64,000 bases of DNA from Lachnospiraceae bacterium AC2029 (GTDB lineage: Bacteria; Bacillota; Clostridia; Lachnospirales; Lachnospiraceae). Positions 41,323 through 61,467 of the stretch are shown here, piece after piece. Under the pieces are notes generated by a model. The model saw nothing but the letters and a program-made list of their open reading frames with translations. It did no database searches and was not told where the DNA came from. The translations under genes were made by a program, and so were the position numbers. The stretch lies in contig JNLK01000001.1 in the NCBI GenBank assembly GCA_000703065.1, positions 620,001-684,000 on the forward strand. Reading direction: 5' to 3'. Every line of letters begins with the position of its first letter. Positions within the stretch are counted from its first letter, which is position 1.

Positions 41323-41358
41323 ATATAAAATGCCCGGGGCAGCGATGACTCCCGGGCA
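41323..41358 (-). terminator. metY leader terminator-type hairpin
   Basis: On the minus strand GCCCGGG (41351-41357) pairs with CCCGGGC (41332-41338), followed by ATTTTATAT. The U-run is short. The 5' arm can instead pair perfectly over 10 bases with CTCCCGGGCA (minus strand, 41445-41454) inside the leader ORF, giving two exclusive structures. Confidence 0.65.
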
Positions 41359-41384: not shown

Positions 41385-41504
41385 TCAGTCTTCTATCTTC
41401 ATGAGGCGGCGACATCGGCAATCGAACGCCCCAGCCATACTAAATGCCCGGGAGACATACATTCGACAACACATCATGGAATAATAATAACGCTTCTCAG
41501 TCAT
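41385..41504 (-). CDS. Cys/Met-rich leader peptide of metY
   Basis: 39 codons. AAAGGAGG stands 9 bases before the ATG, one of the strongest sites here. The peptide has a Tyr triplet at 6-8, Met at 1, 10, 11, 15, 23 and 35, and Cys at 12, 13, 29 and 31. The anti-terminator arm begins at codon 17, a few codons beyond the Cys-Cys pair. The stop lies 26 bases before the terminator hairpin. This is the arrangement of a ribosome-stalling attenuator responding to charged Cys-tRNA (or Met-tRNA). It resembles the leader at 56415-56525. Confidence 0.7.
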   Translation of the reverse strand: MTEKRYYYSMMCCRMYVSRAFSMAGAFDCRCRRLMKIED

Positions 41505-41560: not shown

Positions 41561-41594
41561 ATATTACCACCTTTTACCTACTATGTCAATAGGT
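41561..41594 (-). promoter_or_regulatory. metY promoter with overlapping Rrf2-type operator
   Basis: Minus strand: -35 TTGACA (41584-41589), 17-base spacer, -10 TAATAT (41561-41566). The dyad ACCTA...TAGGT (41576-41594; core CCTACTATGTCAATAGG on the plus strand) covers the -35. A nearly identical dyad overlaps the promoter of the transporter operon at 56607-56623, next to an Rrf2 regulator gene. Repression by that regulator under sulfur sufficiency is inferred. Confidence 0.75.
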
Positions 41595-43533: not shown

Positions 43534-43696
43534 TGCAAAACCCTCCTTATTCCGCACGAATTATAGTCCCGTATGAATCAACCAAACACAACAACGCATC
43601 CCCCTCCACAGGGAGGGAACTGTGCTGTTTTTTTGATTGACACACCACTGTAGAGATTCTACCACTTTCGTTTTGTATCCGCAATTCCCGGATTGC

Positions 43697-46626: not shown

Positions 46627-48033
46627 CTAAGAATTTGCGAGAATTACTTCTCTCAGCGCTCTTCCGGATTCCAGCTTTTTCAGCATTTCCAGGGCCGGAT
46701 TCGTCCTTCTTTCGGCCCGTTCAAAGAGCGGTTCCAGGAAATGTTCCTCTCCGTGTCCCCGTTCCACAAGTCCGTCCTCGGCCAGCTCCAGAACCTTCCT
46801 GATCAGGTTGTAGGCCGCATCATCGAATCGGGTCGTATGGTTCTTCCGCACAAAGATCTCCCTCAGTTCTCCCACGCTGTACCCCTGCTGGTACAGATCA
46901 ACTTCATGAGCCAGGAGTCCCGACAGCTTCGGAAGCTTCTTCAGCAATCCCGCATGGAACGCCGCAACGCTCATCACATCCTGCACCGGCTGCTCGCAAA
47001 CGGACCGGAATTCCACCGTTCCCCGGAATGTCAGATCGTTGAACTTGAAGGACCGGAGAAACGCCAGGTCCGAAAGCTGCGGTTCGAAGGACGCAAACCG
47101 GTACCGCCCCTCCTCCGGATCAAAATACTCTCCCCGGACCACCTTGCCGCGAAAATATTCATCCAGCGGAACCGGCGGAAAATTGATGTACTTCCCGTCC
47201 CGCTCCAGACAGTACAGACTCTCGGAGCAAATGTACCGCACGATCTCATCCACGCTATGCAGGCGCTTGTCATACTCGTCTACATTGTGCGGGTTCAGCC
47301 CGTGAAGGCTGTGCTTCCACAGATAGTCCCGGCTGGCCAGGAACCGGTGGTGCTCATCCGCATCGAAGGCGGAGTTTGCAAAAAGCAGCGCCTTTAACGG
47401 CTCCAGCCGATTGAAGGTGTTCAGGATCTCCACCACATTGTCCCGCTCCACATCCACCTGCACCTGAGACGCACAGCTGAACAGTCCGAAATGCGGATAA
47501 TCATGAAAATGTATTCGATTCCCATACTGCTGATATGACTCCAGATGATGCAGCAGCATCCGGTATCTTCCATTGTGAATGGGCTCCACCCGGTTCACAG
47601 GGTAGCCCGGATTGATCCCCATCCCGGTCAGGGTGTGGTTCTCCGACAGCAGTATCTCCTGTACGTACGCGTAATATTTCAAGAAGCGCTCCTGCAACGC
47701 ACAGATACTATCCTCGATCCCGAAGGAAAACTCCATGGTATTATAACTGCAGTCAAAGGAAATGGTGTCGCCCGTCTTCGGATCCTCCGCCAGGTAGATC
47801 TCTTCATCCTCGTCTCTGGACACCTCCGAAAAACCGAACCGAAGCACAAAGCTCTCGGCCAGCCGGTGAACCACATCAAAATCAACCGGTTGTGTCACCT
47901 CGGAAAGTCCGATCCCGTTCAGGTTCACGATCGGATACTCCAGTTCAACTCCAACAACCGGCTTTGCTTTTCTTTCTGTCGGGCGGATATACTTCTGACA
48001 GAGCGCCTCGATCAGTTCATTTTCAGTGATCAT
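46627..48033 (-). CDS. GCS2-family glutamate-cysteine ligase-like enzyme A
   Basis: 468 residues with the GCS2-type carboxylate-amine ligase pattern: GVELEYPIVNL (substrate/metal Glu), DCSYNTMEFSFG, then FSCASQVQVDV and a late Arg-rich GTVEFRSVCEQP. Such enzymes join an amino group to the gamma-carboxyl of glutamate or a similar acid using ATP. GGAGGG lies 7 bases before the ATG. It follows the class II amidotransferase by 75 bases. A second divergent GCS2-type enzyme sits on the other side of that gene, so the pair may act in sequence. No glutathione synthetase gene is nearby. Confidence 0.82.
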   Translation of the reverse strand: MITENELIEALCQKYIRPTERKAKPVVGVELEYPIVNLNGIGLSEVTQPVDFDVVHRLAESFVLRFGFSEVSRDEDEEIYLAEDPKTGDTISFDCSYNTMEFSFGIEDSICALQERFLKYYAYVQEILLSENHTLTGMGINPGYPVNRVEPIHNGRYRMLLHHLESYQQYGNRIHFHDYPHFGLFSCASQVQVDVERDNVVEILNTFNRLEPLKALLFANSAFDADEHHRFLASRDYLWKHSLHGLNPHNVDEYDKRLHSVDEIVRYICSESLYCLERDGKYINFPPVPLDEYFRGKVVRGEYFDPEEGRYRFASFEPQLSDLAFLRSFKFNDLTFRGTVEFRSVCEQPVQDVMSVAAFHAGLLKKLPKLSGLLAHEVDLYQQGYSVGELREIFVRKNHTTRFDDAAYNLIRKVLELAEDGLVERGHGEEHFLEPLFERAERRTNPALEMLKKLESGRALREVILANS

Positions 48034-48108
48034 ATGGTATTCCCTCCAAAAATACGATTTCCCGTGTGATCATCTGTTCCGCCATCCGTCTCCGGTGGCA
48101 TTTCCGAC

Positions 48109-48882
48109 TTACAGTCCCGAGTAACTCAGATAGAGCAGCCGCAGCTGTTCCTCATTTTCCACATAGGTTCCATTATGCTTCTCTCCAGTATAGATTCGGT
48201 ATCCGTCCTTATAGATCAGCATCTGATTCTGCGGCACCTCGTTCCAGTTCCCCGTCCCCAGCGGCCGTGTGGAGAAAAATACGGCGTCATTCTCCTCCCG
48301 GATATAAAGAGTCCCGGGCGCATTTTTATGAACATACAGATACTCGCCGTCACTGAAGACGAGATTCAGCTTGTTGCCCGGAGAGAGATGCACCACAACC
48401 TCCTCCGCAACCCGGAAGCGTTCATTTACGTCAAATGAGTTCAGCTCATCCTCCAGGTTCTCGTTGATCTGATCCACCAGGTAAAGCAGGACGCGCTCAC
48501 TGTCGGTGGTTCCCTTCTGCCGGTGGAGATACGGACTCAGGACACCGGACTCGAAAATGGTCCCGTTATGCATCAGTGTCCAGACACGTCCGGACACATC
48601 CCGTGTTACAAAAGGATGCGTATTCCTGTACTCCACGTCACCGATGGTTGCCTTCCGGATGTGTGCCATCACGGTCGTCACTTCAAAGCCCGCCGCCAGA
48701 CGATTCTTCAGATAGGCGCTGTCAGATGCCCGTACCGGTTCCCGTTCCACGTTCTGGAACCCATTTTCAAAGACAGCGATTCCCCATCCGTTGGAGTGCT
48801 CCCGACTGTGTGAGAAGAATTCCTTCAACAGTCCCGTCACCGGTGTCTTATTTTTTGCGCTTACCGCGAAAAGCTCACACAT
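48109..48882 (-). CDS. class II glutamine amidotransferase (EgtC/YafJ type)
   Basis: 257 residues. The mature N-terminus would be Cys2 (MCELFAVSAK), the Ntn nucleophile; HSNGWGIAVFENG, AHIRKATIGDVEYRNTHPF and LMHNGTIFES are the glutaminase-domain signatures. No synthase domain is fused. In ergothioneine clusters the similar EgtC removes a gamma-glutamyl group after an EgtA ligase has added glutamate to cysteine; here two EgtA-like genes flank it, but EgtB and EgtD are absent. GGAGGGG is 6-8 bases upstream of the ATG. Confidence 0.85.
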   Translation of the reverse strand: MCELFAVSAKNKTPVTGLLKEFFSHSREHSNGWGIAVFENGFQNVEREPVRASDSAYLKNRLAAGFEVTTVMAHIRKATIGDVEYRNTHPFVTRDVSGRVWTLMHNGTIFESGVLSPYLHRQKGTTDSERVLLYLVDQINENLEDELNSFDVNERFRVAEEVVVHLSPGNKLNLVFSDGEYLYVHKNAPGTLYIREENDAVFFSTRPLGTGNWNEVPQNQMLIYKDGYRIYTGEKHNGTYVENEEQLRLLYLSYSGL

Positions 48883-48991
48883 GTTCCGCCCCTCCTATTA
48901 TCATTTCCTGTTGCTTCCCCGTGTACCTGTCCATGCTCCTGTCCATACACAGAGATTCCCATGTTCATACTCAGCCGTTCATCGCTTACGT

Positions 48992-50296
48992 TCATCCCAC
49001 GGATCGTTCCTTCAGATCTGTCAACACTTCCTTCCTGCCGTCCGGGAGCGCCTTCCGGGCTCCGCCCTTCGGTTCCTTCCCGTCTCCTGCCTGCAGTTCC
49101 TTCAGGTAGACCTTCTCGTCCTCCGGCAGCACCGTTTCCGCCAGACGGATCATGTCCTTGATCCAGGCCCGCACCCTTTTTCCGGCGTAGATGACAGCCT
49201 CCTCTCCCTGGATCTCGGTCCGGAACACTGCCTCCTCCACATCGATCAGATGTCCGGAGAGCAGCTTCTCCAGCTGTTTCAGATTCTCTTCATAATAGAA
49301 GAGTCCCTTCAGCAGCGCCGCATATCCCAGGGCCTTCCGGATCGGGACGCTGTCCGCAACTCTTACCTCCAGATATCGCTTCAACCGGATATGATGAAAG
49401 AACATGGAAAGCAAATGTTCCACCACCGCTTTCTGCCGTTCCGGTTCTTCCGACAGTTCCGACAGCCGAAGGATCTCCGGGAGCTTCTTCTCCCCTGCCC
49501 AGGTGGTTTCCCCTGCATCCGTCAGCACCACCAGGGGCCGGCTGAGCAGCAGGTCCGCATAGGCGTCATAACCGAACTTTCCCTGGAAGGCTCCGGGGAA
49601 GAAGCCTGTCCGGTCCGGATCCAGGTCTTCCCAGATCTGTGTACGGAGCAAATGTTTTCCCTTTCTTTCAGCAACCCGGCTGTCCGGATAGGATTTGTTC
49701 TCCATCAGCTGCATCAGGACCGGCGACAGGATCGTAAGAAGCCTGAGCTTCCGTACCATATCCTCCTCCGACGCATAATCCAGGGAGATCTGCGTCGATG
49801 CGGACGCCCGCATCATGTAGGATCCGTATCGTCCGGAGGTCCGGAAATACCGGTCCATGAAATAATAACGGTTCTTTGGGATCAGCGGAAGCTCCGTCGG
49901 ATGGATCCGTCCTGCTTCCACTCCGGGATGAAGGCCTCTCGTCACGAGCGTGTATCCGATGCTCCCCAGGACCGGATCCCATACGGAACGGAAGCCCTGA
50001 TAGATTTCTTCAACCTTCGCCAGGGATTCAAATGGAGCAATGCTGACCTCAAGCTGACAGGCGGGCTCCACGCTGATCGTATGATCTCCCGCATCGTATC
50101 CCACCACATGGCCTTCCGCATAGACCAGCTCAGCCCCGAGCTTCTCCGCGATTCTCCGGATCAGATCAGAGAGGACATCAAATTCGATCCCTTCATCCAT
50201 CTCATTTAACACAAAATGTTCCAGTTCCAGACCGACTCTCTGCCGGTCCGTCTCCCCGGCCCGAATATATTTTGTAACAACCGCTCTGTCCTGCAT
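48992..50296 (-). CDS. GCS2-family glutamate-cysteine ligase-like enzyme B
   Basis: 434 residues. VGLELEHFVLNE, HTISVEPACQLEVSIAPFESL and RASASTQISLDY are the EgtA/GshA (GCS2) signatures; KRYLEVRVADSVPIR matches the Arg loop. Closer to proteobacterial/plant-type and EgtA ligases than enzyme A is. The ribosome binding site is weak (GGGG close to the ATG). It begins 84 bases after the ABC ATPase gene, so it is probably transcribed with the sulfur amino acid transporters, which supports a sulfur-containing substrate. Confidence 0.83.
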   Translation of the reverse strand: MQDRAVVTKYIRAGETDRQRVGLELEHFVLNEMDEGIEFDVLSDLIRRIAEKLGAELVYAEGHVVGYDAGDHTISVEPACQLEVSIAPFESLAKVEEIYQGFRSVWDPVLGSIGYTLVTRGLHPGVEAGRIHPTELPLIPKNRYYFMDRYFRTSGRYGSYMMRASASTQISLDYASEEDMVRKLRLLTILSPVLMQLMENKSYPDSRVAERKGKHLLRTQIWEDLDPDRTGFFPGAFQGKFGYDAYADLLLSRPLVVLTDAGETTWAGEKKLPEILRLSELSEEPERQKAVVEHLLSMFFHHIRLKRYLEVRVADSVPIRKALGYAALLKGLFYYEENLKQLEKLLSGHLIDVEEAVFRTEIQGEEAVIYAGKRVRAWIKDMIRLAETVLPEDEKVYLKELQAGDGKEPKGGARKALPDGRKEVLTDLKERSVG

Positions 50297-50380
50297 ACGC
50301 CCCGCACTATCCCTTCTTCATTTCCGCTGTTCTTTCCTACCTTCACATTCCCCGCAATGCCTCGCCTGCACAAATGCTGC

Positions 50381-51430
50381 TCACCCCGTCTTCCGGACAT
50401 TCTTCTGCACCTTCTCGTAGGAGAAGCTGCTGAGGAACTGTCTCGCCCGTTCTGTCCTCGGTGCGCGGAAGAAGCTGTTGCCGCCTGCCTCCTCCACGAT
50501 CCCTCCCTGATCCAGGAAGATCACTCTGTCCGCGATGGCACGGGCAAATGCCATCTCATGCGTTACGATCACCATGGTCCGTCCCTGCTCCGCCAGCCGG
50601 AGGAGCACCTCCAGCACCTCGCGGATCATTTCCGGATCCAGCGCTGCCGTGACTTCATCGAACAGCAGCACCTCCGGGTGCATGGCCAGAGCCCGGACGA
50701 TGGCGACACGCTGCCGCTGTCCGCCCGAAAGCTGTCTCGGATATGCATCCGCCTTGTCCTCCAGAGCTACCTGCTTCAGGAGTGCCAGGGCTTCCTCGCG
50801 AACCTTCTTCTTGTCCCGCTTCTGCACCTTGAGGGGTGCCAGCATGATATTCTGGAGGATCGTCTTATGTGGAAAGAGTTCATAACTCTGGAACACCATT
50901 CCCACCTTCTGCCGGATGGCTGCCAGTTGCTTTTCCTGACCGTTCCTTCTTCTTCCTCTGCCCTGCGCATAGCTTCCGCTGTCCTGTGCGCCGCTTCGCT
51001 TCCCATGCGCATCGCTTCCGCTGTCCTGTGCGCCGCTTCGCTTCCCCCGTGCGTTGCTTCCGCTATCCTGCGGATTGCTTCCTCTGCCCTGCGCGTCGCT
51101 TCCGCTGTCCTGCGCGCCGCTTCGCTTCCCCGGCGCATCGCTTCCTCTGTCCTGCGCGCCGCTTCCTCTGTCCTGTCCGCTCCGTCCGCTTCTCCTGCCC
51201 GGCTTGTCACCTTCGGCCGCATTAATCACTTCCCCCCGGAAGCTCACCTGTCCGCTCTGGATCGTCTCCAGCCCGTTCAGGCAGCGGAGCAGTGTGCTCT
51301 TGCCGCAGCCCGAGGGCCCCAGGATCACAACCACCTCCCCCTCCCGGACGGAGAGAGAGACATCCTTCAGGATCACATTTTCACCATATGCCTTTTTCAG
51401 ATTCTCCACACGGATCAGTTTCTCACTCAT
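50381..51430 (-). CDS. polar amino acid ABC transporter ATPase with heptapeptide-repeat insert
   Basis: 349 residues; typical family members have about 245. Walker A GPSGCGKSTLLRCLNGLE at the usual place, then about 100 extra residues made of seven-residue repeats of the form GSDAQGR / RSGAQDS (21-bp units, DNA about 50950-51220), then the normal Q-loop IRQKVGMVFQSYELFPH, signature LSGGQRQRVAI and Walker B VLLFDEVTAALD. The core is otherwise intact. Its ATG overlaps the stop of the upstream permease (ATGA). It powers the two polar amino acid permeases just upstream; cystine is the likely substrate from context. Confidence 0.9.
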   Translation of the reverse strand: MSEKLIRVENLKKAYGENVILKDVSLSVREGEVVVILGPSGCGKSTLLRCLNGLETIQSGQVSFRGEVINAAEGDKPGRRSGRSGQDRGSGAQDRGSDAPGKRSGAQDSGSDAQGRGSNPQDSGSNARGKRSGAQDSGSDAHGKRSGAQDSGSYAQGRGRRRNGQEKQLAAIRQKVGMVFQSYELFPHKTILQNIMLAPLKVQKRDKKKVREEALALLKQVALEDKADAYPRQLSGGQRQRVAIVRALAMHPEVLLFDEVTAALDPEMIREVLEVLLRLAEQGRTMVIVTHEMAFARAIADRVIFLDQGGIVEEAGGNSFFRAPRTERARQFLSSFSYEKVQKNVRKTG

Positions 51431-52107
51431 GCTACAGCCCATTTCCTTTCCAGGTGTTTTGCCAGTCTGCCGATGGGCCAGCAGGCTGCGAAATACAGCA
51501 GAAATACCACTGCATATACACCAAATGCCGCATTCGGAGATGCGGTACGATTTGCTTCAATGATCTGCTGCCCCACCTTCAGGACCTCCACCACGCCGAT
51601 CATCATCACCAGGCTGGTGGTCTTGATCATTCGCGTGATCAGATTGATGGACAGCGGGATCAGCCGCCGCAGTGTCTGAGGGATCACTACGGAAATGTAG
51701 GTCTGCCCCTTTGTCAGTCCCAGGGCCCAGGCACTTTCATACTGATGCTTCGGGATGCTGATCAGAGCGCCCCGTACCAGGTCACCCATTTCCGCCGTAC
51801 CCCAGAAGCTGAAGACGATGATGGCCGCCACCTCCGCATCCAGGTCCCACCCGAAGATCCGGGTCGATCCGAAGAATACGATGAAGAGCAAGACCATTTG
51901 CGGCATGATCCGGACGATCTCCAGATACAACCTTGTGAAGATCCGGATCGCCGGATGCTTCTTCGTCATCAGGATCCCGATCAGGATCCCGAAGGGCAGG
52001 CTGATCAGGACTGCGATCAGACTGATCCGAAGGGAGACCCACAGGCCTTCCAGAAGGCGGATCCCGTTGGTTCCCTTGAAGAGAACATCAATCCCCAAAT
52101 CCTGCAT
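51427..52107 (-). CDS. polar amino acid ABC permease 2
   Basis: 226 residues, five or so transmembrane helices, HisM/GlnP type: LLEGLWVSLRISLIAVLISLP at the start and the EAA loop ESAWALGLTKGQTYISVVIPQTLRRLIP. It overlaps permease 1 by 20 bases and the ATPase by 4. The two permeases probably form a heterodimer. Confidence 0.92.
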   Translation of the reverse strand: MQDLGIDVLFKGTNGIRLLEGLWVSLRISLIAVLISLPFGILIGILMTKKHPAIRIFTRLYLEIVRIMPQMVLLFIVFFGSTRIFGWDLDAEVAAIIVFSFWGTAEMGDLVRGALISIPKHQYESAWALGLTKGQTYISVVIPQTLRRLIPLSINLITRMIKTTSLVMMIGVVEVLKVGQQIIEANRTASPNAAFGVYAVVFLLYFAACWPIGRLAKHLERKWAVA

Positions 52108-52747
52108 GTCGCACCCTCCTTTCCATCCGGCTTCCCAGGATCGATACCGGAAGCAGGATGATCAGATAGAAGATCACCAGCAGCACCAGGCTCTCCGTGG
52201 TCTTGTAGTAAAGTCCGATCAGATCCTTCGCGGTAAACATCAGGTCCATCAGGCTGATGGCCGAAAATACGCTGGTCTCCTTCAGGAGGAAGATCACATT
52301 TGCCGTGAAGCCCGGAATACTGACGGATACTGCCTGGGGAAGGATCACATACCTGAGAGCCTGCCAGCGGGTCATTCCCAGCGACAGTGCACTCTCCGTC
52401 TGGATCTTCTCCACGGTATCCAGTCCGCTTCGCAGTGTCTCCGCCATGTAGGCCCCGCCCAGAAGTCCCAGGCCCAGGATCCCGCAGAGCTCCGCACCCA
52501 GCTGAATCCCAAGCTTCGGAAGTCCGAAGTAGAGAAAGAACAGCTGCACCAGAAGCGGCGTATTCCGAAAGAGTTCGATATAGCCTCCGGCGATCACGCG
52601 CAGCACCGGGATCTTCAGATACCGGATCAGTGCGGTGACGGATCCGATCAGGAACGCCAGGAGGATTCCCAGCCATCCGATCCAGAACGTCAGCCAGAGC
52701 GCCTTTTCAAAGAGCGGCAGATAGGATTGTATTACTTCCCAGTTCAT
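52088..52747 (-). CDS. polar amino acid ABC permease 1
   Basis: 219 residues of the HisM/GlnP family: FEKALWLTFWIGWLGILLAFLIG, FRNTPLLVQLFFLYFGLP, and EAA loop TESALSLGMTRWQALRYVILPQAV. The start at 52747 overlaps the metI-type stop codon (ATGA), indicating translational coupling between two ABC systems of different families in one operon. Confidence 0.92.
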   Translation of the reverse strand: MNWEVIQSYLPLFEKALWLTFWIGWLGILLAFLIGSVTALIRYLKIPVLRVIAGGYIELFRNTPLLVQLFFLYFGLPKLGIQLGAELCGILGLGLLGGAYMAETLRSGLDTVEKIQTESALSLGMTRWQALRYVILPQAVSVSIPGFTANVIFLLKETSVFSAISLMDLMFTAKDLIGLYYKTTESLVLLVIFYLIILLPVSILGSRMERRVRHAGFGD

Positions 52748-53406
52748 GTTGTTCGCCGATCTACCTTTCTTGACAGAAGCATTCCCAACCATTGCAGAAG
52801 CTGCATCAGCAGTACCAGCACCGCAACCGTGATCAGCATGATCTGGGTCTCATAACGATAGTACCCGTAGCGGATCGCGATATCTCCCAGTCCGCCTCCG
52901 CCGACCACCCCGGCCATAGCTGAGTATCCGAGAATGGTACCCAGCGCAATCGTAACACCAACCAGGAGGGATGTTCTGGCTTCGGCGATCAGCACTTTGC
53001 GGACAATGGTAAATGGGCTCGCCCCGAGACTGACTGCTGCTTCGATGACTCCATGATCCACTTCCTTCAGCGAGTTCTCCACCATACGGGCGATAAGGGG
53101 TGCCGCGGCAAGCGTCAGGGGAACGATAGTCGCCGTCGTTCCGTAGCTCTTACCGACCACCAGCCTCGTAAAGGGCTGGATCAGGATCAGCAAGATCAGG
53201 AAGGGAACGCTTCTTGTAATATTGATGATCAGATCCAGCGCCCGATATAGGATCGGCCGCGGACTGATTCCGTCCTTACCTGTGATCGTCAGAAGGACAC
53301 CCAGCGGAAGTCCGATCAGATAGCCCAGGGCTGTGGAAATGAGCACCATTCCCAGAGTATCTGCGGTTCCCTCCAGCAGCATGGGCCAGATATCAGACCA
53401 CTGCAT
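52744..53406 (-). CDS. metI: methionine-type ABC permease (MetI)
   Basis: 220 residues, five predicted helices. ITRSVPFLILLILIQPFTR and the EAA loop EAAVSLGASPFTIVRKVLIAEA are typical of MetI; GVVGGGGLGDIAIRYGYYR follows. It overlaps metN by 14 bases. With MetN and the NlpA half of the fused binding protein it makes a methionine-uptake system. Confidence 0.93.
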   Translation of the reverse strand: MQWSDIWPMLLEGTADTLGMVLISTALGYLIGLPLGVLLTITGKDGISPRPILYRALDLIINITRSVPFLILLILIQPFTRLVVGKSYGTTATIVPLTLAAAPLIARMVENSLKEVDHGVIEAAVSLGASPFTIVRKVLIAEARTSLLVGVTIALGTILGYSAMAGVVGGGGLGDIAIRYGYYRYETQIMLITVAVLVLLMQLLQWLGMLLSRKVDRRTT

Positions 53407-54190
53407 ACAGTCCCTCCTCTCCGACGATCTCTTCTTCCAGCTGCTCGGACTCCTCCAGAAGCAGAAGTCTCTTTGCAGCCTTTGACTGCGGGTTACGAAA
53501 TACTTCCTTTACCGGTCCGGTCTCCGCCACCGCTCCGTGGTGCAGGACCGTTACCCGGTCACAGATCTCCGTGATGACACGCATTTCATGGGTGATGATC
53601 ACGATGGAGATCCCATACTCACGATTTACCCTCTTCAGCAGCTCCAGGATCGTCCGTGTGGTCTTCGGATCCAGGGCACTGGTCGCCTCGTCACACAGGA
53701 TGATCCGCGGGTGAGATGCCAGGGCTCTTGCGATGGCCACTCTCTGCCGCTGCCCTCCGGACAACTGGGCGGGATAAGCCTTCGCCTTTCCCTCCAGTCC
53801 CACCGTCCGAAGAAATTCATATGCCTGCTGCCGCGCCTCCTTCTTCCGAAGGCCGGCGATCTCCAGAGGAAAGCAGACATTGTCCAGAACAGTTCTCTGC
53901 ATCAGCAGATTGAAATGCTGAAAGATCATCGCTATGTTCTGCCGCTCTTTCCGAAGCTCCGTACCGGACAGGGTGAGGAGATCCTTCCCCTCCACCCGGA
54001 TCTGTCCGGATTCCGGCTGCTCCAGCAGGTTGATGCAACGAACCAGCGTGCTCTTTCCCGCACCGGACAGCCCGATCACGCCGTAGATCTCGCCTTCCTC
54101 CACGGATAGGCTTACATCCTTCAGGGCCTGTACCTGACCGCTCTTTCCGGTATACGTTTTCGTTACCTGTTCCAACTCAATGACTGCCAT
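53393..54190 (-). CDS. metN: methionine-type ABC ATPase (MetN, short form)
   Basis: 265 residues. Walker A GLSGAGKSTLVRCINLLE, Q-loop FQHFNLLMQRTVLDNV, signature LSGGQRQRVAIARAL, Walker B ILCDEATSALDP. E. coli MetN is about 343 residues with a C-terminal regulatory methionine-binding (NIL) domain; this protein stops after the ATPase core plus a short acidic tail, so trans-inhibition by methionine is probably absent. AAGGAGG precedes the ATG. Confidence 0.92.
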   Translation of the reverse strand: MAVIELEQVTKTYTGKSGQVQALKDVSLSVEEGEIYGVIGLSGAGKSTLVRCINLLEQPESGQIRVEGKDLLTLSGTELRKERQNIAMIFQHFNLLMQRTVLDNVCFPLEIAGLRKKEARQQAYEFLRTVGLEGKAKAYPAQLSGGQRQRVAIARALASHPRIILCDEATSALDPKTTRTILELLKRVNREYGISIVIITHEMRVITEICDRVTVLHHGAVAETGPVKEVFRNPQSKAAKRLLLLEESEQLEEEIVGEEGLYAVV

Positions 54191-54391: not shown

Positions 54392-56125
54392 TTAGTTAAA
54401 AGGGATCACCGCACCATCATAGGTATCTACGATGAACTGACGGATCTCCTCAGACTCCAATGCCTTTACAAGGGCCTGTGTCTTCTCGCTGTTTTCCTGT
54501 CCGGCCTTAACGCCGATGATATTTACGTAGGTCTTTGCTGCCTCGGAATCGGACTTCTCGTATGCTACGGCGTCCTTTCCTACGGAGAGACCTGCCTCAA
54601 GTGCGTAGTTTCCGTTCAGTACCACAAATGCCACTTCGTCTTTTACTCTGGATACCTGGGCTGCTTCCAGCTCCTGGATCTTCAGGTTCTTCGGGTTGTC
54701 CTGGATATCCAGAACGGTTGCTGTGAGGCCTGCACCTTCCTTCAGTTTGATCAGGCCGTTGTCTTGTAATAACAGGAGAGCTCTTGCTTCATTGGTTGTA
54801 TCGTTCGGTACAGCGATGGTATCGCCGTCTTCGAGCTGATCCAGAGTTGCCTTGGTTCCCGGATAGATTCCGAAGGGCTCATAGTGGATGCCTGCTGCAG
54901 ATACGATATTGGTTCCGTTTTCCTTGTTGAAATCATCGAGATAAGGTACATGCTGGAAATAATTTGCGTCGATCTCGCCACTCTCTACTACCAGGTTCGG
55001 CTGTACATAATCCTCAAACTCAGTAACCTTCAGTTCCCAGCCTTCCTTTGCCAGGATGTCCTTTGCCTTTGCAAGGATCTCTGCGTGAGGCGTCGGGGAT
55101 GCTGCTACGGTGATGGTTCCCTTGGACTCTGCCGGCTGTGCCTCTGTGGTGTCTGCCGGTGCTGCGTCATTCTTTGCGTCCGGTACCACGCCGCCCTCGA
55201 TCACCAGGGTGTCCTCGAATTCCTTGCCGTAGGTGTCGATAAGTGTTGCTTCGTAATCAGCATGGAAGAACTTCTCATTACCCAGTGCCTTGATCTCATC
55301 GTTGAGCCAGTTCAGCAGCGTCTCATTTCCCTTGGATACTGCCGGTGCGATGGTGTCCGCACTGCCCAGAGAATCGATGCCTACGGTGTAGCCCTTGTTC
55401 TCCTTTGCAAATGCGATGACCTCGGTGTTGTCATTTGCCCACGCAACGCCTGTTCCGTTTTCAAATGCGCTCTTTGCTGCGGCATAGGTGTCAAACTTCT
55501 GAAGCTTGATGTCGGAATTGTTCTTCTCCAGATAGGTCTCTGCCGTGGTTCCGGAGATAACGATGATCTGGTCCTCTGCCTTGACCTCGCCGAGATCCTT
55601 GATGACTCTCTCGTCATGAGATACAACGCCGAGTGCCACATTCATGTACGGAAGTGCGAAATCAACCTCCTCTGCACGTTCAGGAGTTACCGTGAAATTC
55701 GCAAGTACGATATCTACCTTTCCGGTCTTCAGATACTCGATCCGGCTTGCTGCCTCTGTGGATACGTAATTGATCTTGACTCCCAGATCCTTGCCGAGAC
55801 GCTCTGCCAGGTATACGTCGTAGCCCTGATAGGTTCCGTTCTCGTCCACATATCCGAAGGGGGACTTGTCGGAGAAGACTCCGATATTAATTGTACCGGA
55901 CTCCTTGATCTCATCCAGTGTACGGTAGATTGCCTTGGTTTCCTGCGTATTTCCCGCATCTGCCGTTCTCTCGGCTGCGGTTGTGCCGTCATTGGATCCG
56001 CAAGCCGTAAGCAGGCTGAGGGATGTGACCGCTGTCAGACCGAAGCCGACCAGCTTCTTCAGTAAATGTTTTCTGTTCTTCTTTTTTATTTCCTTATTCT
56101 CTGTATCCTTAATAAACTTTCTCAT
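54392..56125 (-). CDS. fused dual substrate-binding lipoprotein (family 3 + NlpA/MetQ)
   Basis: 577 residues. A basic N-terminus and lipobox LLTAC with Cys at 42. Residues about 65-315 form a family 3 amino acid-binding domain (INIGVFSDKSPFGYVDENG, YLKTGKVDIVLANFTVTPERAE). After an Asp/Ala/Pro linker, residues about 335-577 form an NlpA/MetQ domain (VAASPTPHAEILAKAKDIL, DANYFQHVPYLDDFN, AVPNDTTNEARALLLL). These two folds normally are separate proteins for different ABC families; the operon encodes exactly those two transporters. AAAGG precedes the ATG at 56125 by 8 bases. First structural gene after the leader. Confidence 0.93.
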   Translation of the reverse strand: MRKFIKDTENKEIKKKNRKHLLKKLVGFGLTAVTSLSLLTACGSNDGTTAAERTADAGNTQETKAIYRTLDEIKESGTINIGVFSDKSPFGYVDENGTYQGYDVYLAERLGKDLGVKINYVSTEAASRIEYLKTGKVDIVLANFTVTPERAEEVDFALPYMNVALGVVSHDERVIKDLGEVKAEDQIIVISGTTAETYLEKNNSDIKLQKFDTYAAAKSAFENGTGVAWANDNTEVIAFAKENKGYTVGIDSLGSADTIAPAVSKGNETLLNWLNDEIKALGNEKFFHADYEATLIDTYGKEFEDTLVIEGGVVPDAKNDAAPADTTEAQPAESKGTITVAASPTPHAEILAKAKDILAKEGWELKVTEFEDYVQPNLVVESGEIDANYFQHVPYLDDFNKENGTNIVSAAGIHYEPFGIYPGTKATLDQLEDGDTIAVPNDTTNEARALLLLQDNGLIKLKEGAGLTATVLDIQDNPKNLKIQELEAAQVSRVKDEVAFVVLNGNYALEAGLSVGKDAVAYEKSDSEAAKTYVNIIGVKAGQENSEKTQALVKALESEEIRQFIVDTYDGAVIPFN

Positions 56126-56148: not shown

Positions 56149-56301
56149 TCAGGGCTTTCGCCTGTGTCTTTTTCTTGATCTTTCCTTTACTGCTTCGTTC
56201 CATGCCTCCCGGAAAGCAACCCAGTTCGCATTTCCCGCTTCCTCTCTGTAACAACATCGCCGCTCCAGCGGCATTCGCATCGAATATCTTCTATTATTCA
56301 T
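56149..56301 (-). CDS. second small ORF in the transporter leader
   Basis: 50 codons. AAAGGAG lies 9 bases before the ATG. The start (MNNRRYSMRMPLERRCC) again has Met and a Cys-Cys pair; the rest is basic. It lies between the attenuator terminator and the binding-protein start, ending 23 bases before it. It may be a second leader peptide or a translational coupler; coding is uncertain. Confidence 0.4.
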   Translation of the reverse strand: MNNRRYSMRMPLERRCCYREEAGNANWVAFREAWNEAVKERSRKRHRRKP

Positions 56302-56344: not shown

Positions 56345-56382
56345 AAAAAAAATACCGGAGTTCTCATGATCAAGAACCCCGG
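56345..56382 (-). terminator. attenuator terminator of the transporter operon
   Basis: On the minus strand a 10-bp stem, CCGGGGTTCT (56373-56382) with AGAACTCCGG (56355-56364), loop TGATCATG, then TATTTTTTTT. This is a canonical terminator within the leader, about 220 bases before the first structural gene. Its 5' arm can instead pair over 11 bases (two G-U) with CAGGAATCCCG in the leader ORF (56458-56468). Confidence 0.88.
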
Positions 56383-56414
56383 AACATTTGCCGAGACATC
56401 ATTTTCAGAAGGCG

Positions 56415-56525
56415 TCAGGCACGACGAAGCGCCGCATCACCACTGTCTCGACCATATCGGGATTCCTGCAGTATGCAACCACACATCATCATACACATAC
56501 ATGTTGTATAGACTCTGTTCTTCAT
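56415..56525 (-). CDS. Cys/Met-rich leader peptide of the transporter operon
   Basis: 36 codons; GGGAG lies 8 bases before the ATG. Residues 8-17 read TCMCMMMCGC: Cys at 9, 11, 15 and 17, Met at 10, 12, 13 and 14. The anti-terminator arm starts at codon 20, directly after the Cys/Met cluster, and the stop lies 32 bases before the terminator. A ribosome stalled for Cys-tRNA or Met-tRNA would leave the arm free and prevent termination; free passage would cover it. Same plan as the metY leader. Confidence 0.75.
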   Translation of the reverse strand: MKNRVYTTCMCMMMCGCILQESRYGRDSGDAALRRA

Positions 56526-56590
56526 CGATCTTTCTCCCTTTCCGGCCCTCTGTCCTGTGACGTGAGCACTGTTCTTCTTTACAGTTCGTC

Positions 56591-56623
56591 ATTCTACACC
56601 CATTTGCCTACTGTGTCAATAGG
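56591..56623 (-). promoter_or_regulatory. transporter operon promoter with Rrf2-type operator
   Basis: Minus strand: TTGACA (56614-56619), 17-base spacer, TAGAAT (56591-56596). The plus-strand dyad CCTACTGTGTCAATAGG (56607-56623) overlaps the -35 and differs from the metY dyad at one base. Confidence 0.78.
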
Positions 56624-56657
56624 TTTTTTATTTTTTTTTCTTGAATTACCTATTCGC

Positions 56658-56701: not shown

Positions 56702-57097
56702 ATGATTTCAACCAGAGGAAGATATGCGCTCCGGGTCATGCTTGACCTGGCAGAGCAGAACAGCGACAGTTATATACCCTTAAAGGATATCGCCGAGCGG
56801 CAGGGCATTTCCAAGAAGTATCTGGAGATCATTGTGAAGGAACTGGTCAACGGCGGTCTCCTGACCGGAGCCAGCGGCAAGGGCGGCGGCTACAAGCTGT
56901 GCCGGAAGCCGAAGCAGTACAAGGTCGGTGAGATCCTGGAGCTGATGGAGGGAACCCTCTCCTCCGTTGCCTGCCTGGAGGACCCGGACTACGAGTGCCC
57001 CCGCAGGGACGCATGCCAGACCCTTCCCATGTGGACCGAGTTCGACCAGATGGTCCACGACTTCTTCTACTCCCGCACGCTGAAGGATCTGATGTGA
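56702..57097 (+). CDS. Rrf2-family regulator (CymR/IscR-like)
   Basis: 131 residues. N-terminal winged helix (GRYALRVMLDLAEQ, PLKDIAERQGISKKYLEIIVKELVNGGLL), then GGGYKLCRKPKQYKVGEILELMEG. Three Cys follow as C-x7-C-x5-C in ACLEDPDYECPRRDACQ, the region that holds the [2Fe-2S] ligands in IscR; B. subtilis CymR lacks such a trio. GGGGG precedes the ATG. It is divergent from the sulfur amino acid transporter operon, whose promoter carries the same dyad found at metY, so it is the probable regulator of sulfur uptake. Confidence 0.9.
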   Translation: MISTRGRYALRVMLDLAEQNSDSYIPLKDIAERQGISKKYLEIIVKELVNGGLLTGASGKGGGYKLCRKPKQYKVGEILELMEGTLSSVACLEDPDYECPRRDACQTLPMWTEFDQMVHDFFYSRTLKDLM

Positions 57098-57244: not shown

Positions 57245-59299
57245 TCAGACGATTTCCGCAGTCTGCGCAACAACCCTGCCTTTTGCATCAAATTCATACT
57301 GCACTCCGTCAATGGTCAGTGTGCAGTTCACAGCCATAACTCCGTTCTTCTGGAAATAATACCGATTTCCTTTCACCGTCAGCCAGCCGAAATGCATCGT
57401 TCCGTCCTTGTCAAAGTAATAGGTCTTGCTTCCGGACTTCACAACGCCTGTCTGCATTACGCCCTTCTTGTTGAAGTAATAATACTTTCCGCTGATCTTC
57501 TTCAGCCCGGTCACCATGATACCGTTCGTACCAAAATAGAACCACTTTCCGTCTAAGGTCAGCCAGCCGGTCTGCATGGCTCCGTTCTTCTCAGGATTAA
57601 AATAGTACACACCGTCAGATGTTTTGATCACGCCTGTCTGCAGCGCTCCCTTGCCGTTAAAATAATAATTCTTCTTGCCGACCGTCACAATGCCCGTCTG
57701 CATTGCACCGGTCTCGGGATCGAAATAGTAGATCTTTCCGCCGCGTTTCAGAACACCTGTCCGCATAACACCATTCGCATCGAAGAAATAAATCTCATTG
57801 TCGATGGTCTGCACACCGGTCAGATATTCTCCGTTCTCACCGACATAATACTTCTTGCCTTCAATCTCCTGCCAGCCGGCCTGGATTTTCTCTGTGATCA
57901 GTTTTGTGTTCAAATCATATTGAAGATTAGGATTATAATCATAACCATAATAGTAATAATTCTTTCCTGTTTCCTCATCATAGAGAACTGCCTGATCATA
58001 ATATTCTATTACACTCCCTATAATCCGGGTGCCACACACATCCAACTCTGTCAATTGGTTATCATAACAACGCAACCATAGAAGTGCTTCAAATCCGCTC
58101 ACATTGAGTTCCGTCAACCGGTTATTATGGCAATCTAAATCAAATAAAGATTCACATCCGTTCATGTTCAGTTCAGTCAATTGGTTGGAAGAGCAGTAGA
58201 TCGTATCAAGCGATGTACAGCTGCTCACATCCAGTTCTGTCAACTGATTGCCCGAGCAATAGATCGATTCAAGTAATGCGCAGCCGCTCACATTCAATTC
58301 CGTCAATTGATTATTATAACAAAACAAGTTTGTCAGCGACTCACATCCGCTCACATCCAGTTCCGTCAATTTGTTGTAATCGCATTCGAGATTTGTCAGC
58401 GACGCGCATCCGCTCACATCCAATTCTGTCAAGTCGTCAGCATAACAAGTCAGATCTGTCAACGAATCACATCCGCTCACATCCAGTTCCGTCAATTGAT
58501 TGCTATGACAATCTATATTAACAAGTGGTGTACATCCGCTTACATTCAGTTCCGTCATCTGGTTGCTAAAGCATTCCAACGACTGAAGGTATTTACATTT
58601 GCCCAGATCCAGACTCGTCAAATAATTGTTATCACACTTCAAACTCTCAAGTGATATACATAGTTTCAGGTCCAGTCCCGTCAATTGGTTGTGATCGCAC
58701 TTCAAACTCTTAAGTGATTCACATATAGCCAAATTTAATACCTTCAACTTATTGGAACTACAATTCAGTTCTATCAACGATACACAGTTACTCAGATTCA
58801 AGTACGTCAATTGACCGGATTCACAATCCAAAGATGTAAGCGATACACAATTGCACGCTGCCAATTTTTCCACTGAACAATCATCGAGGTATACTTCAGT
58901 CAGGCTAAGATGGTTACTTAAATCCAGGACTTCCATACTGCTATGTTTAAACCTAAAAACCTTAAGTTCGGTATTCTTACTTAGATTCAGTTGGGGTTGG
59001 GAGTAGTTAGAGATTTCCAATGTGTTAAGTTTTTCAAATAACTCTATCCCCTGCAGCGAATCAACATTAGTTGCGTCTAAATTAATCTCTGTAACCGCAT
59101 CCAACTCCGCCTGAGACAGACTTCCATTCTTATCCTTATCACAGTTATCCTTAACATAGCTTCGAAATTCTTCATCCGGGAAATTGTATCTCGTGATGGC
59201 AAGCTCGATTTCCTCTGCATTTACGTTCACCGGCATGGCAAATGTCAGCCCGCCGGCCAGTATCGCTGCTGCAACCCCTAATTTCCAACCAATTCTCAT
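57245..59299 (-). CDS. secreted leucine-rich-repeat protein with choline/glucan-binding-type repeats (paralogue 2)
   Basis: 684 residues. Signal peptide ending near VNAEE; EF-hand-like loop DKDKNGSLSQAE near residue 50; about fifteen leucine-rich repeats of the form LTELDVSGCxSLTNLxCxxNQ; then about nine CW_binding_1-type repeats (GKIYYFDPETGAMQTG, GKYYYFNKKGVMQTG) at the C-terminus. The many Cys in the repeats are at consensus positions. Likely a wall-attached surface protein. GGAGG stands 11 bases before the ATG at 59299. Tandem duplicate of the next gene. Confidence 0.87.
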   Translation of the reverse strand: MRIGWKLGVAAAILAGGLTFAMPVNVNAEEIELAITRYNFPDEEFRSYVKDNCDKDKNGSLSQAELDAVTEINLDATNVDSLQGIELFEKLNTLEISNYSQPQLNLSKNTELKVFRFKHSSMEVLDLSNHLSLTEVYLDDCSVEKLAACNCVSLTSLDCESGQLTYLNLSNCVSLIELNCSSNKLKVLNLAICESLKSLKCDHNQLTGLDLKLCISLESLKCDNNYLTSLDLGKCKYLQSLECFSNQMTELNVSGCTPLVNIDCHSNQLTELDVSGCDSLTDLTCYADDLTELDVSGCASLTNLECDYNKLTELDVSGCESLTNLFCYNNQLTELNVSGCALLESIYCSGNQLTELDVSSCTSLDTIYCSSNQLTELNMNGCESLFDLDCHNNRLTELNVSGFEALLWLRCYDNQLTELDVCGTRIIGSVIEYYDQAVLYDEETGKNYYYYGYDYNPNLQYDLNTKLITEKIQAGWQEIEGKKYYVGENGEYLTGVQTIDNEIYFFDANGVMRTGVLKRGGKIYYFDPETGAMQTGIVTVGKKNYYFNGKGALQTGVIKTSDGVYYFNPEKNGAMQTGWLTLDGKWFYFGTNGIMVTGLKKISGKYYYFNKKGVMQTGVVKSGSKTYYFDKDGTMHFGWLTVKGNRYYFQKNGVMAVNCTLTIDGVQYEFDAKGRVVAQTAEIV

Positions 59300-59402
59300 T
59301 TTTCGTGTAACCTCCTCTTTCCAAAAATAGACCCTATACAAGAATATAGCATAGCCCAAGAACAACACGCAACTGAATCATTCTTATGATATACGCGAGC
59401 TG

Positions 59403-61391
59403 TTAATTGATCACAGTAGCAACACCACTCGCTGCAAACTGATACTCCACTCCGTCTATGGTCAATGTACAGCTCACAGCCATAACTCCGTTCTTCTGGA
59501 AATAATACCTCTTTCCCTTCACCGTCAGCCAGCCGAAATGCATCGTTCCATCCTTGTCGAAATAGTAGGTCTTACTTCCGGACTTCACAACGCCCGTCTG
59601 CATAACGCCCTTCTTGTTGAAGTAATAATACTTTCCGCTGATCTTCTTCAGCCCGGTCATCATGATGCCGTCCGAACCAAAATAGAACCACTTTCCTTCT
59701 AAGGACAGCCAGCCGGTCTGCATCGCCCCTTTCTTCTCAGGGTTAAAATAGTACACACCGTCTGATGTTCTTATCACACCCGTCTGCAGAACTCCTTTGC
59801 TGTTGAAATAAAACTTCTTCTTACCAATCGTCACGATGCCCGTCTGCATTGCCCCGGTCTCGGGATCGAAATAGTAGATCTTTCCACCGCGTTTCAGAAC
59901 TCCTGTCTGCATAACGCCGTTCTTATCGAAGAAATATATCTCATCGTCGATCTTCTGCACGCCGGTCAGATATTCTCCGTCTTCACCGACATAGTATTTC
60001 TTACCGTCAATCTCCTGCCAGCCAGATTGTATTATTTCTGTAATCAGCTTTGTATTTACGTCATAGGAAAGATCCGGTGCTTCCTCGTCACCACCGTAAT
60101 AATAATACGTCTCTCCTGTATCAGGATCTGTGAGGCTTCCTCTGAGACAGTCATCTATCAATATCAGGATTGCCTTGTTGTATCCCACATCCAGTTCCGA
60201 CAATTGATTGAAATGACACCATAACACCGCAAGTGACGGAACACCTGACAGATCCAGTTCGGTCAGTTGGTTGTCATGACAATACAAGGTATCAAACGAA
60301 TCACCCCCACCCAAATCCAGTTGTTTCAATTGGTTGAAGGAGCAATCCACTTCTCGAAGCGATCCAGGGCTGCTCACATCCAGTTCCGTCAATTGGTTGG
60401 AAGAACAATTCAGAACCTCCAGAAAAAAGCAATCATGCACATCCAGTTCCGTCAATTGGTTGGAAGAACAGTCAAACGTCCGAAGTTCCCGGCAACTGCG
60501 CAAATCCAGACCCGTCAATTGGTTGGAAGAACAATCCAATGTCAGAAGGATATAACAGTCTTGTAAATTCAGTTGCCTCAATTGATTTTTATAGCAATAC
60601 ATTTCCTCCAGTTTTGTTGGACACAAAACCAAATTCCACAACCAGTTGTCATAGCACCTCAAAGATTTAAGTTCTTCGCATGTACTCAGATCCAGGTCCG
60701 TCAATCGGTTGGATGAACAATTCAGAACCTCAAGCAATCTGCAGTCATTCACTTTCAGTTCCGTCAATTCATTGGAAGAACAATTCAACTGCTCAAGCAT
60801 TTCACATGAACTCACATCCAGTTGACTCAGTTCGTTGGATTGGCATTCAAAAGTAATAAGAGTTGTACATCCTCTCACATCTATATAGTTTATTTCGTTG
60901 GAAGGGCAATACAGATTTTGAAGTGAGTCAAATCCGGACAACTCCAATCGCGTCAGTTGGTTGGAAGAGCAATTTAACTGTTCAAGTGCTCTGCATCCAC
61001 TCACATCCAGGTCAAGCAACCGGTTGGACTGGCAGAACAGAAAACGAAGTGATGTACATTCACTCACGTCCAAATACTGCAACTCGTTGGACTGGCAATA
61101 CAGGCTTTGCAGATTCTCAAAGTACCCTACACCCTTCAATGTTGAAATATCCATACCGGACACATCTATTGATGTAACCGCATCCCTTTCCTGCCGAGAC
61201 AGACTTCCATTCTCATCCGTATCATAAAGGCGCCTGATATACTCCTGAAAAAATATATCCGGAAAATTATCTTCCGAGATGGCAATCTCCGTCCCTGCCG
61301 CATCCACATCAGTCGGAACGGCAAATGCCATCCCGCCGGCCAAAACTGCCGCAGCGATCCCTAATTTCCAAAAACGTCTCACCTTTCGCAT
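59403..61391 (-). CDS. secreted leucine-rich-repeat protein with choline/glucan-binding-type repeats (paralogue 3)
   Basis: 662 residues with the same order as the gene at 57245: signal peptide, EF-hand-like loop DTDENGSLSRQE near residue 55, leucine-rich repeats (LYCQSNELQYLDVSECTSL, LNCSSNQLTELDVHDC), nine CW_binding_1 repeats nearly identical to those of its neighbour. AAGGAGGAGG is close to the ATG. The wall-binding modules are far more similar than the leucine-rich parts, suggesting the ligand-binding part diverges faster or that the ends are homogenised by gene conversion. Confidence 0.87.
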   Translation of the reverse strand: MRKVRRFWKLGIAAAVLAGGMAFAVPTDVDAAGTEIAISEDNFPDIFFQEYIRRLYDTDENGSLSRQERDAVTSIDVSGMDISTLKGVGYFENLQSLYCQSNELQYLDVSECTSLRFLFCQSNRLLDLDVSGCRALEQLNCSSNQLTRLELSGFDSLQNLYCPSNEINYIDVRGCTTLITFECQSNELSQLDVSSCEMLEQLNCSSNELTELKVNDCRLLEVLNCSSNRLTDLDLSTCEELKSLRCYDNWLWNLVLCPTKLEEMYCYKNQLRQLNLQDCYILLTLDCSSNQLTGLDLRSCRELRTFDCSSNQLTELDVHDCFFLEVLNCSSNQLTELDVSSPGSLREVDCSFNQLKQLDLGGGDSFDTLYCHDNQLTELDLSGVPSLAVLWCHFNQLSELDVGYNKAILILIDDCLRGSLTDPDTGETYYYYGGDEEAPDLSYDVNTKLITEIIQSGWQEIDGKKYYVGEDGEYLTGVQKIDDEIYFFDKNGVMQTGVLKRGGKIYYFDPETGAMQTGIVTIGKKKFYFNSKGVLQTGVIRTSDGVYYFNPEKKGAMQTGWLSLEGKWFYFGSDGIMMTGLKKISGKYYYFNKKGVMQTGVVKSGSKTYYFDKDGTMHFGWLTVKGKRYYFQKNGVMAVSCTLTIDGVEYQFAASGVATVIN

Positions 61392-61467
61392 TGCCTCCTC
61401 CTTCTCAAAATAAACCCTATACAGACTATCATAGACAGCATGATAGTGAACCCGTCCCTTTGTCACA

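Follow-up and report, generated by a model that had tools for sequence, protein, structure and literature searches.

A presumed operon for the uptake of cystine and methionine lies on the minus strand of the window, the name used here for the whole 64,000-nucleotide stretch of Lachnospiraceae bacterium AC2029 DNA that was analysed. Its first gene (54392..56125) encodes a lipoprotein in which a cystine-type SBP_bac_3 domain is fused to an NlpA/MetQ domain. Both the family-3 amino acid binding domain and the NlpA/MetQ domain scored above Pfam cutoffs, and the cystine- and MetQ-specific NCBIfam models matched below their own cutoffs. Downstream are metN-like, metI-like and two cystine-type permease genes (51427..54190, minus strand), the metI-like gene scoring above the cutoff of the MetI model. 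An earlier note on this DNA had described an operon with both kinds of transporter, and MetQ/MetN/MetI-type genes are indeed joined here to cystine-type genes. Judged by strand and spacing, the genes that follow (46627..51442, minus strand), which encode a TcyN-like ATPase, two glutamate-cysteine-ligase-like proteins and an EgtC-like amidotransferase, probably share the operon.

Several features of the neighborhood deserve mention in their own right. The TcyN-like ATPase (50381-51442, minus strand) carries a long low-complexity insert of Ser/Gly/Arg/Asp-rich repeats and is matched by ABC family models in two stretches. The two ligase-like genes and the EgtC-like gene (46627-50296, minus strand) stand within the presumed uptake operon; the second ligase-like protein had no Pfam match, and at 15 sites in relatives such ligase genes directly follow the promoter palindrome described below. 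Do the ligase-like and EgtC-like genes constitute a thiol pathway? A second small ORF of 50 amino acids, beginning MNNRRYSMRMPLERRCC... (56149..56301, minus strand), lies between the leader's terminator and the lipoprotein gene and is conserved, with the motif RMPx[GEA][RH]RC and a counterpart at 11 of 11 group-A leader loci (grouping given below); it may be either a conserved small protein or a second RNA element. Three predicted secreted proteins (57245-61466 and 41788-43557, minus strand), judged by eye to contain leucine-rich and C-terminal cell-wall-binding-type repeats, are encoded near both operons headed by leaders of the kind described here. A regulator of the Rrf2 family (CymR/IscR-like; 56702..57097, plus strand) is transcribed divergently.

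The leader itself (the 56-kb leader) and its promoter occupy 56624-56345 on the minus strand, and all positions given for them refer to that strand. The sigma-70-type promoter (56591..56619), read from the sequence, has TTGACA at 56619-56614, a 17-nt spacer and TAGAAT at 56596-56591, and its −35 box is contained in the palindrome ACCTATTGACACAGTAGG (56607..56624; genome 676607-676624), a likely Rrf2 operator. A Shine-Dalgarno (SD) sequence, AAGGGAGA (56533..56540), also read from the sequence, precedes a 36-codon ORF, MKNRVYTTCMCMMMCGCILQESRYGRDSGDAALRRA (56415..56525), in which TCMCMMMCGC forms residues 8-17. The Cys/Met codon run CMCMMMCGC (codons 9-17; 56475..56501) provides the presumed sensing codons. 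From codon 20 onward, the segment CAGGAAUCCCG (R2; 56458..56468) can pair with CGGGGUUCUUG (R3; 56371..56381) to form an 11-bp alternative helix with two G-U pairs, the presumed antiterminator. The R3 segment is common to this helix and to an intrinsic terminator (56345..56382) that lies 32 nt past the leader stop and consists of an 11-bp hairpin, CCGGGGTTCTT..GAGAACTCCGG (56382-56355), followed by the U-rich tract TATTTTTTTT. The earlier note had claimed the promoter hexamers, the ORF and its codon run, the arm from codon 20, a canonical terminator 32 bases after the stop and the 11-bp pairing; on re-reading, each was found in place, the ORF to the base and the arm at 56468-56458.

Between R2 and R3, a central stem-loop, CGAGACA..UGUCUCG (56383..56457), was predicted in both states in constrained folds. 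Calculated alone, the terminator hairpin had an energy of −17.1 kcal/mol and the antiterminator helix −14.1. Best folds with each helix forced were at −45.0 (terminator) and −43.9 (antiterminator), so that the two states are close in energy. The entire 267-nt leader folded moderately better than shuffled sequences (z −1.74). Coincidence, which the earlier note had also considered unlikely, is hard to reconcile with the composition of the ORF, whose Cys+Met density was the highest among 935 short ORFs of the window, at 8 of 10 residues compared with 5 of 10 in the next; Cys and Met codons account for 128 of 4449 codons (2.9%) across 14 window genes. A search of the own genome with the leader peptide returned the peptide itself and one other match (E 0.23).

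A companion leader with the same plan, which the earlier note had named as the first such attenuator, is present on the minus strand before a metY-like gene for a PLP enzyme of Cys/Met metabolism and cysK, and its elements bear that note out. It comprises the ORF MTEKRYYYSMMCCRMYVSRAFSMAGAFDCRCRRLMKIED (41385..41504), an antiterminator 5′ arm, CUCCCGGGCA (41445..41454), a second short helix from AUGGCU (41438-41433), an intrinsic terminator (41325..41357) and, inside the ORF, an anti-SD segment, CGCCGCCUC (41403..41411), that pairs with the SD region at 41519-41505 (p 0.010). Its promoter carries a copy of the palindrome, ACCTATTGACATAGTAGG (41577..41594). The companion belongs to group B of the leaders collected in this work, and the leader at 56525-56415 belongs to group A.

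The alternative pairing is compensated in relatives. In group B, the antiterminator comprises two helices with 16 pairs in all; across 29 leaders, 93.1% of the pairs were standard, compared with 27-49% in slid controls. Double changes occurred at 6 pairs, in 13 cells, against a shuffled mean of 3.2; UA to AU and CG to UA were each seen in three leaders, and these particular changes may share one origin. For 41 of 42 leaders, the pairing of R2 with the downstream region was better than in shuffled controls (p ≤ 0.05), with p < 0.005 for the 56-kb leader. Two poly-Cys leaders of unrelated sequence follow the same plan (p 0.025 and 0.09, the latter for L112). When own R2-R3 combinations were ranked against crossed ones, the best 5% held 9 of 92 leaders, and 11 of 91 in a repeat, where ∼4.5 would be expected; the strong conservation of R2 makes this a weak test. 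Among eight region pairs tested, R2 with R3 and the SD region with the leader tail alone stood out. A candidate "1:2 protector" pairing of the Cys-codon region with the 3′ part of the leader was rejected: it was good in some metY leaders but showed no covariation over the set, the best 5% holding 5 of 91 leaders against 4.5 expected and the best 20% holding 25 against 18.2.

The distance from the Cys codons to the arm is nearly fixed. In group B, the last Cys codon lies 11 nt from the first column of the arm in 23 of 29 leaders, 8 nt in 5 and 14 nt in 1. In group A, the UCCCG core lies 11 nt past the last Cys codon in 11 of 11 leaders, the helix itself beginning some nucleotides earlier. Taken together, 34 of the 40 leaders in groups A and B have the 11-nt spacing; the two poly-Cys leaders have no such spacing anchor. 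These counts refer to promoter-selected leaders, the contig set having been left out because its query imposed the spacing. In the 56-kb leader, R2 starts 12 nt after codon C15 and 6 nt after codon C17. A ribosome covers ∼9-10 nt beyond its A-site codon. A stall at C9-C15 would be expected to leave the whole arm free, and one at C17 to cover part of it, because the arm begins only 6 nt after that codon. As a separate observation, all 20 promoter-selected group-B leaders that bear a Cys-Arg-Met motif use CGA for its Arg, a codon that makes up 5.3% of the Arg codons in 14 window genes; the preference may reflect either a slow codon or an RNA constraint.

The leader accompanies the fused binding-protein gene in relatives. 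A search of 61 genomes of the genus with the lipoprotein gave matches in 54, of which 18 extended over the full fused length. Upstream regions were inspected for these 18 and for three genomes with the first domain alone, the other partial matches being mostly the MetQ domain alone. Each of the 18 full-length orthologs is preceded, at no more than ∼500 nt, by a leader that has a Cys/Met run and SD ≥ 4, and the three with only the first domain also have such a leader (SD 3 in one). Homologous operons lacking a Cys/Met-rich ORF, which the earlier note had named as evidence against its reading, were therefore found in 0 of 18 cases.

A second set of leaders was chosen by the palindrome, which (with ≤1 mismatch) occurs at 85 sites in 42 of the 61 genomes, the reversed-pattern control giving 0. 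The 85 entries represent 84 distinct sites, L006 being a truncated duplicate of the window's own site; one G067 site was merged with an identical 56-nt stretch of G020. Six entries are too short to judge, among them L031 and L109, which show the start of a leader. A leader (SD ≥ 4, Cys/Met ≥ 3 of 9) is present in 42 of the 85. Terminators in these 42 were placed automatically in 36 (L085 re-placed by hand) and by hand in 6. Leaders were found at 15 of 15 sites before binding-protein genes, 16 of 24 before metY, 5 of 7 before MetB/MccB-like genes, 1 of 1 each before MetB/MetC-like and metN genes, and 4 of 4 before an uncharacterised gene family. One of the two MetB/MccB-like sites counted as leaderless (L102) carries a CCCC ORF that the SD filter rejected. 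The palindrome stands without a leader before gshA-like genes (0 of 15 with leader), cysK (0 of 2), rrf2 (0 of 8) and two others. The genes downstream of leaders are mostly sulfur amino acid genes, and the leader is not obligatory in this regulon, as 8 of 24 palindrome sites before metY do without one.

Beyond the genus, a leader-core search of GTDB contigs yielded at least 116 stretches; among the matches listed were 80 loci with 81 sites, of which 67 passed as having SD ≥ 4, an ORF of ≤70 amino acids and a downstream arm. No more than 220 nt ahead of the leader start, 67 of the 81 sites listed carry CCTANTGAC, a pattern that lay outside the query; the reversed control gave 0. Three listed matches with non-Firmicutes titles (Ruegeria, Pseudomonas, Bacteroidales) had neither arm nor palindrome. 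Passing loci among the matches listed included some from Lachnospiraceae, Ruminococcaceae, Saccharofermentans, Blautia, Acetatifactor, Phascolarctobacterium and Anaerovibrio lipolyticus DSM 3074; Phascolarctobacterium and Anaerovibrio are Negativicutes, and in the A. lipolyticus isolate the complete leader was read. A covariance model, R1, matched 87 of 392 genomes of the order at E ≤ 0.1, 32 of its matches there reaching E < 1e-5. At E ≤ 1e-4, the model matched 14 of 391 genomes of the class and 5 of 398 of the phylum, the own genome included. Only group-B leaders went into R1, and the window's own group-A leader scores weakly with it (E 0.006), so that these counts are minimum figures with little to tell about group A. 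They indicate an element that is frequent in certain families and, in most, is either missing or escaped detection. Six weak R1 matches were fetched (L146-L151, E 9.5e-6 to 8e-4), and L147 and L150 have a Cys leader, the other four none. Inspection by eye of 14 strong matches (E ≤ 5e-10) missed by the automatic filter revealed a Cys-codon leader in all 14. One of these, L269, has a leader that reads ..ICCRMR and then stops before the antiterminator arm, which may represent a natural variant, decay or a sequencing error.

The earlier note had proposed that one leader could read both amino acids. This proposal was borne out only in part. Cys codons occur in the run of 137 of 137 distinct leaders (amino acid counts cover 137 of 139), although their presence in every leader is partly by construction since the set was selected for Cys/Met-rich ORFs. 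Met content varied with the downstream gene in this selected set. The mean numbers of Cys/Met codons were 2.11/2.36 before metY, 3.70/3.17 before cystine-type binding-protein genes (fused genes included), 2.20/2.80 before the NlpA/MetQ type, 3.89/1.67 before MetB/MccB-like genes and 2.00/5.25 before metN, where Met is highest (n=4, one leader having 3 and 3). Three of the leaders before metN (L143, L144 and L150), with 6 Met and 1-3 Cys in the run, are candidates for a mainly Met-reading version.

That the element senses Cys only, its Met codons serving RNA or coding needs or being neutral filler, is nonetheless an alternative to be weighed, and is considered unlikely but far from negligible. 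It would account for the presence of Cys in all 137 runs and for the leaders with CCCC or CCCCCC, which precede MetB/MccB-like genes and another gene family. Synonymous variation among the Cys codons of the runs (275 TGT and 86 TGC, compared with 15 TGT and 24 TGC in 14 window genes) also indicates that what is maintained is the amino acid and not a particular codon, a question that cannot be put for Met. Arguing for a role of Met are the excess of Met over Cys before metN in those four leaders and the higher Met content before MetQ-type (2.80) than before MetB/MccB-like genes (1.67), small numbers in which kinship is ignored. Sensing of Cys thus appears firmer than that of Met.

Regulation at the level of initiation is suggested by the palindrome, which is probably the operator of a CymR/IscR-like Rrf2 repressor. 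It is assigned to Rrf2 mainly because sites stand directly before rrf2 genes, at 8 sites in relatives. The divergently encoded protein scored above the Rrf2 superfamily cutoff (120.3 against 73.3) but below that of the CymR equivalog model NF047409 of NCBIfam (91 against 195 bits), and the IscR equivalog cutoff was likewise missed. Rrf2-type control of Cys metabolism genes is exemplified by the CymR regulon, which the present case resembles in this respect, the difference being that the protein here misses the CymR equivalog cutoff. Zero-mismatch copies of CCTATTGACANAGTAGG occur in the genome at the two leader promoters and nowhere else. Looser patterns were not enriched in the own genome, with 19 matches against 77 for the reversed control at ≤3 mismatches, and 6 against 149 for ACCTA-N9-TAGG; only the exact copies at both leader promoters therefore carry weight.

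Initiation control by the Rrf2 repressor alone, the leader being a relic, could draw on the position of the palindrome over the −35 box and on the gshA-like (15 sites), cysK (2) and rrf2 (8) genes that have the palindrome and no leader. Compensatory changes and a maintained codon-to-arm spacing would not be expected of a relic, however, and this explanation is very improbable. Rrf2 control and attenuation can coexist as two layers.

Still less probable is a functional Cys-rich small protein with a metal or redox role, to which the terminator would be incidental. Its C-terminal peptide is conserved (LQESR.GRDSGDAA; SRA..MAG), but SRA..MAG is encoded by nucleotides of the antiterminator arm that change along with their pairing partners. 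The N-terminus is variable, the order and number of C and M differ between leaders, and the two poly-Cys leaders keep the plan with unrelated sequence. Sensing by a T-box, a SAM riboswitch or another ligand-binding RNA, usual as the first two are at Firmicutes Cys and Met genes, is the least credible alternative, given that none of the 4227 families of Rfam 15 matched the 56-kb leader at the gathering threshold and none, T-boxes and SAM riboswitches included, matched at E ≤ 1 in six loci, both window leaders among them. The sole Rfam match in the window was a DUF3800-XI RNA (4668-4717, minus strand, 56.6 bits).

The element thus very probably senses charged tRNA-Cys by ribosome-mediated transcription attenuation, the Met codons being a probable second input. 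As in attenuators of the trp/his type, an SD-preceded ORF past the promoter has a codon run matching the genes, an intrinsic terminator precedes those genes, an antiterminator that excludes the terminator shows covariation, and its arm lies just downstream of the regulatory codons. The ORF, the terminator, the compensated pairing, the nearly fixed spacing and the operon context can all be read directly from the DNA of this locus and its relatives. Covariation, terminators and spacing fit attenuation of this kind, as the earlier note had proposed. Counting against it are the small energy gap between the two folds, the modest z of the whole leader, the partial covering of the arm expected from a stall at C17, the leaderless palindrome sites before metY, the early stop in L269 and the p of 0.09 for L112.

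The sequence of events would be as follows. RNA polymerase would start at the promoter whose −35 box lies inside the probable Rrf2 operator and transcribe the leader ORF. With ample Cys-tRNA and Met-tRNA, the ribosome would pass codons 9-17 and cover the arm from codon 20, the terminator at 56382-56345 would form, and transcription would end before the transporter genes. When Cys (or Met) is short, the ribosome is predicted to stall in the run, and the arm left free ahead of it could pair with the left half of the terminator, permitting read-through into the cystine/methionine uptake operon. Stalling in the run, termination in vivo and the sensing of Met beside Cys are the predicted steps of this scheme.

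A further helix, found in related leaders, involves the ribosome-binding site (RBS). In 43 of 96 leaders tested (out of 109), the 15 nt that precede the leader ORF pair with its 3′ coding part at p ≤ 0.05, in 23 of them at p ≤ 0.01; the sequences vary widely and the pairing is kept. Ranked against crossed combinations in 92 of 106 leaders, near-duplicates removed, the own pairing fell in the best 5% in 16 (4.6 expected) and in the best 20% in 46 (18.4 expected), and a repeat gave 16 and 46 of 91. Control pairings gave 2 and 1 of 92 in the best 5% and 25 and 11 in the best 20%, against the same expectations. The helix is present in the companion metY leader, as noted above, and at p ≤ 0.05 in 4 of 11 group-A leaders. 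It was not detected in the 56-kb leader (p 0.94) or in either poly-Cys leader (p 0.93 and 0.42), and since it was not found in the former it forms no part of the explanation offered for that leader. Where present, it may keep additional ribosomes from loading on the leader after its 3′ part has been transcribed. The putative Rrf2 operator and this helix are additions to what the earlier note contained.

A more tentative proposal, plausible but somewhat short of an even chance, is that Clostridia and Negativicutes share a family in which one Rrf2 operator-promoter leads into a mixed Cys/Met attenuator whose RBS is closed by the 3′ coding segment of the leader. One pioneer ribosome, in step with RNA polymerase, would then read the codons once, later ribosomes being blocked, and around the stalled ribosome the RBS lock and the antiterminator would together make up a pseudoknot. 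Each copy of the leader would be tuned to its own operon by its proportion of Cys to Met codons.

Leader-peptide attenuation has precedents, and the branched-chain leader of Listeria reportedly operates in this way. Nearest in codon content is the uORFC-8-2 motif, a cysS leader of Rhodobacterales (Alphaproteobacteria) that, as far as the available description goes, likewise has a short ORF with tandem Cys codons, a 3′ intrinsic terminator and proposed Cys-tRNA attenuation (PMC8632094). Compared by that description, it differs in preceding cysS only and in having two Cys codons, with no Met codons or Rrf2 operator mentioned there (PMC8632094). The 56-kb leader, by contrast, precedes a transporter operon, and its named relatives by leader sequence are mostly Clostridia. 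Mycobacteria and their relatives have Cys-codon runs in a short ORF before cys genes (PMC1262725, PMC13236596); according to the accessible portions of these reports, the polycysteine leaders there have no conserved terminator hairpin (PMC1262725) and act by translation attenuation (PMC13236596, citing Canestrari 2020), whereas the present leaders, alike in their Cys runs, have an intrinsic terminator and a conserved antiterminator. Within the Firmicutes, His leader-peptide attenuators with tandem histidine codons, terminator and antiterminator are outlined for Bacilli, Eubacteriales and Erysipelotrichales, in small sets of species (PMC9413887, PMC2965389), and the excerpts on Staphylococcus aureus and Listeria describe attenuators of the same leader-peptide kind with branched-chain amino acid codons and no Cys/Met (PMC5794164, PMC5864092).

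As Cys-codon, His and branched-chain leader attenuators have already been described, the mechanism is of a known kind. Among the matches listed in the literature searches, which covered titles, the starts of abstracts and few subscription papers, no Firmicutes Cys or Cys/Met leader attenuator was described. The family, its two-amino-acid code and the RBS helix did not turn up in the literature searched; together with the connection to a probable Rrf2 operator, they may be what is new here.

Sulfur amino acid genes of Firmicutes are usually described as controlled by T-boxes, SAM riboswitches and CymR. For annotation, the gain lies in elements for which no Rfam 15 family fits, either at the two window leaders or at four other loci tried. 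The leaders would also offer a testable case of one leader that reads two amino acids, and the RBS helix would, if it functions, introduce a new regulatory part into an old mechanism. With the attenuators described here, many rumen and gut Clostridia and some Negativicutes, organisms whose sulfur metabolism matters for the gut, would have a further layer of Cys/Met control that is read through codons.
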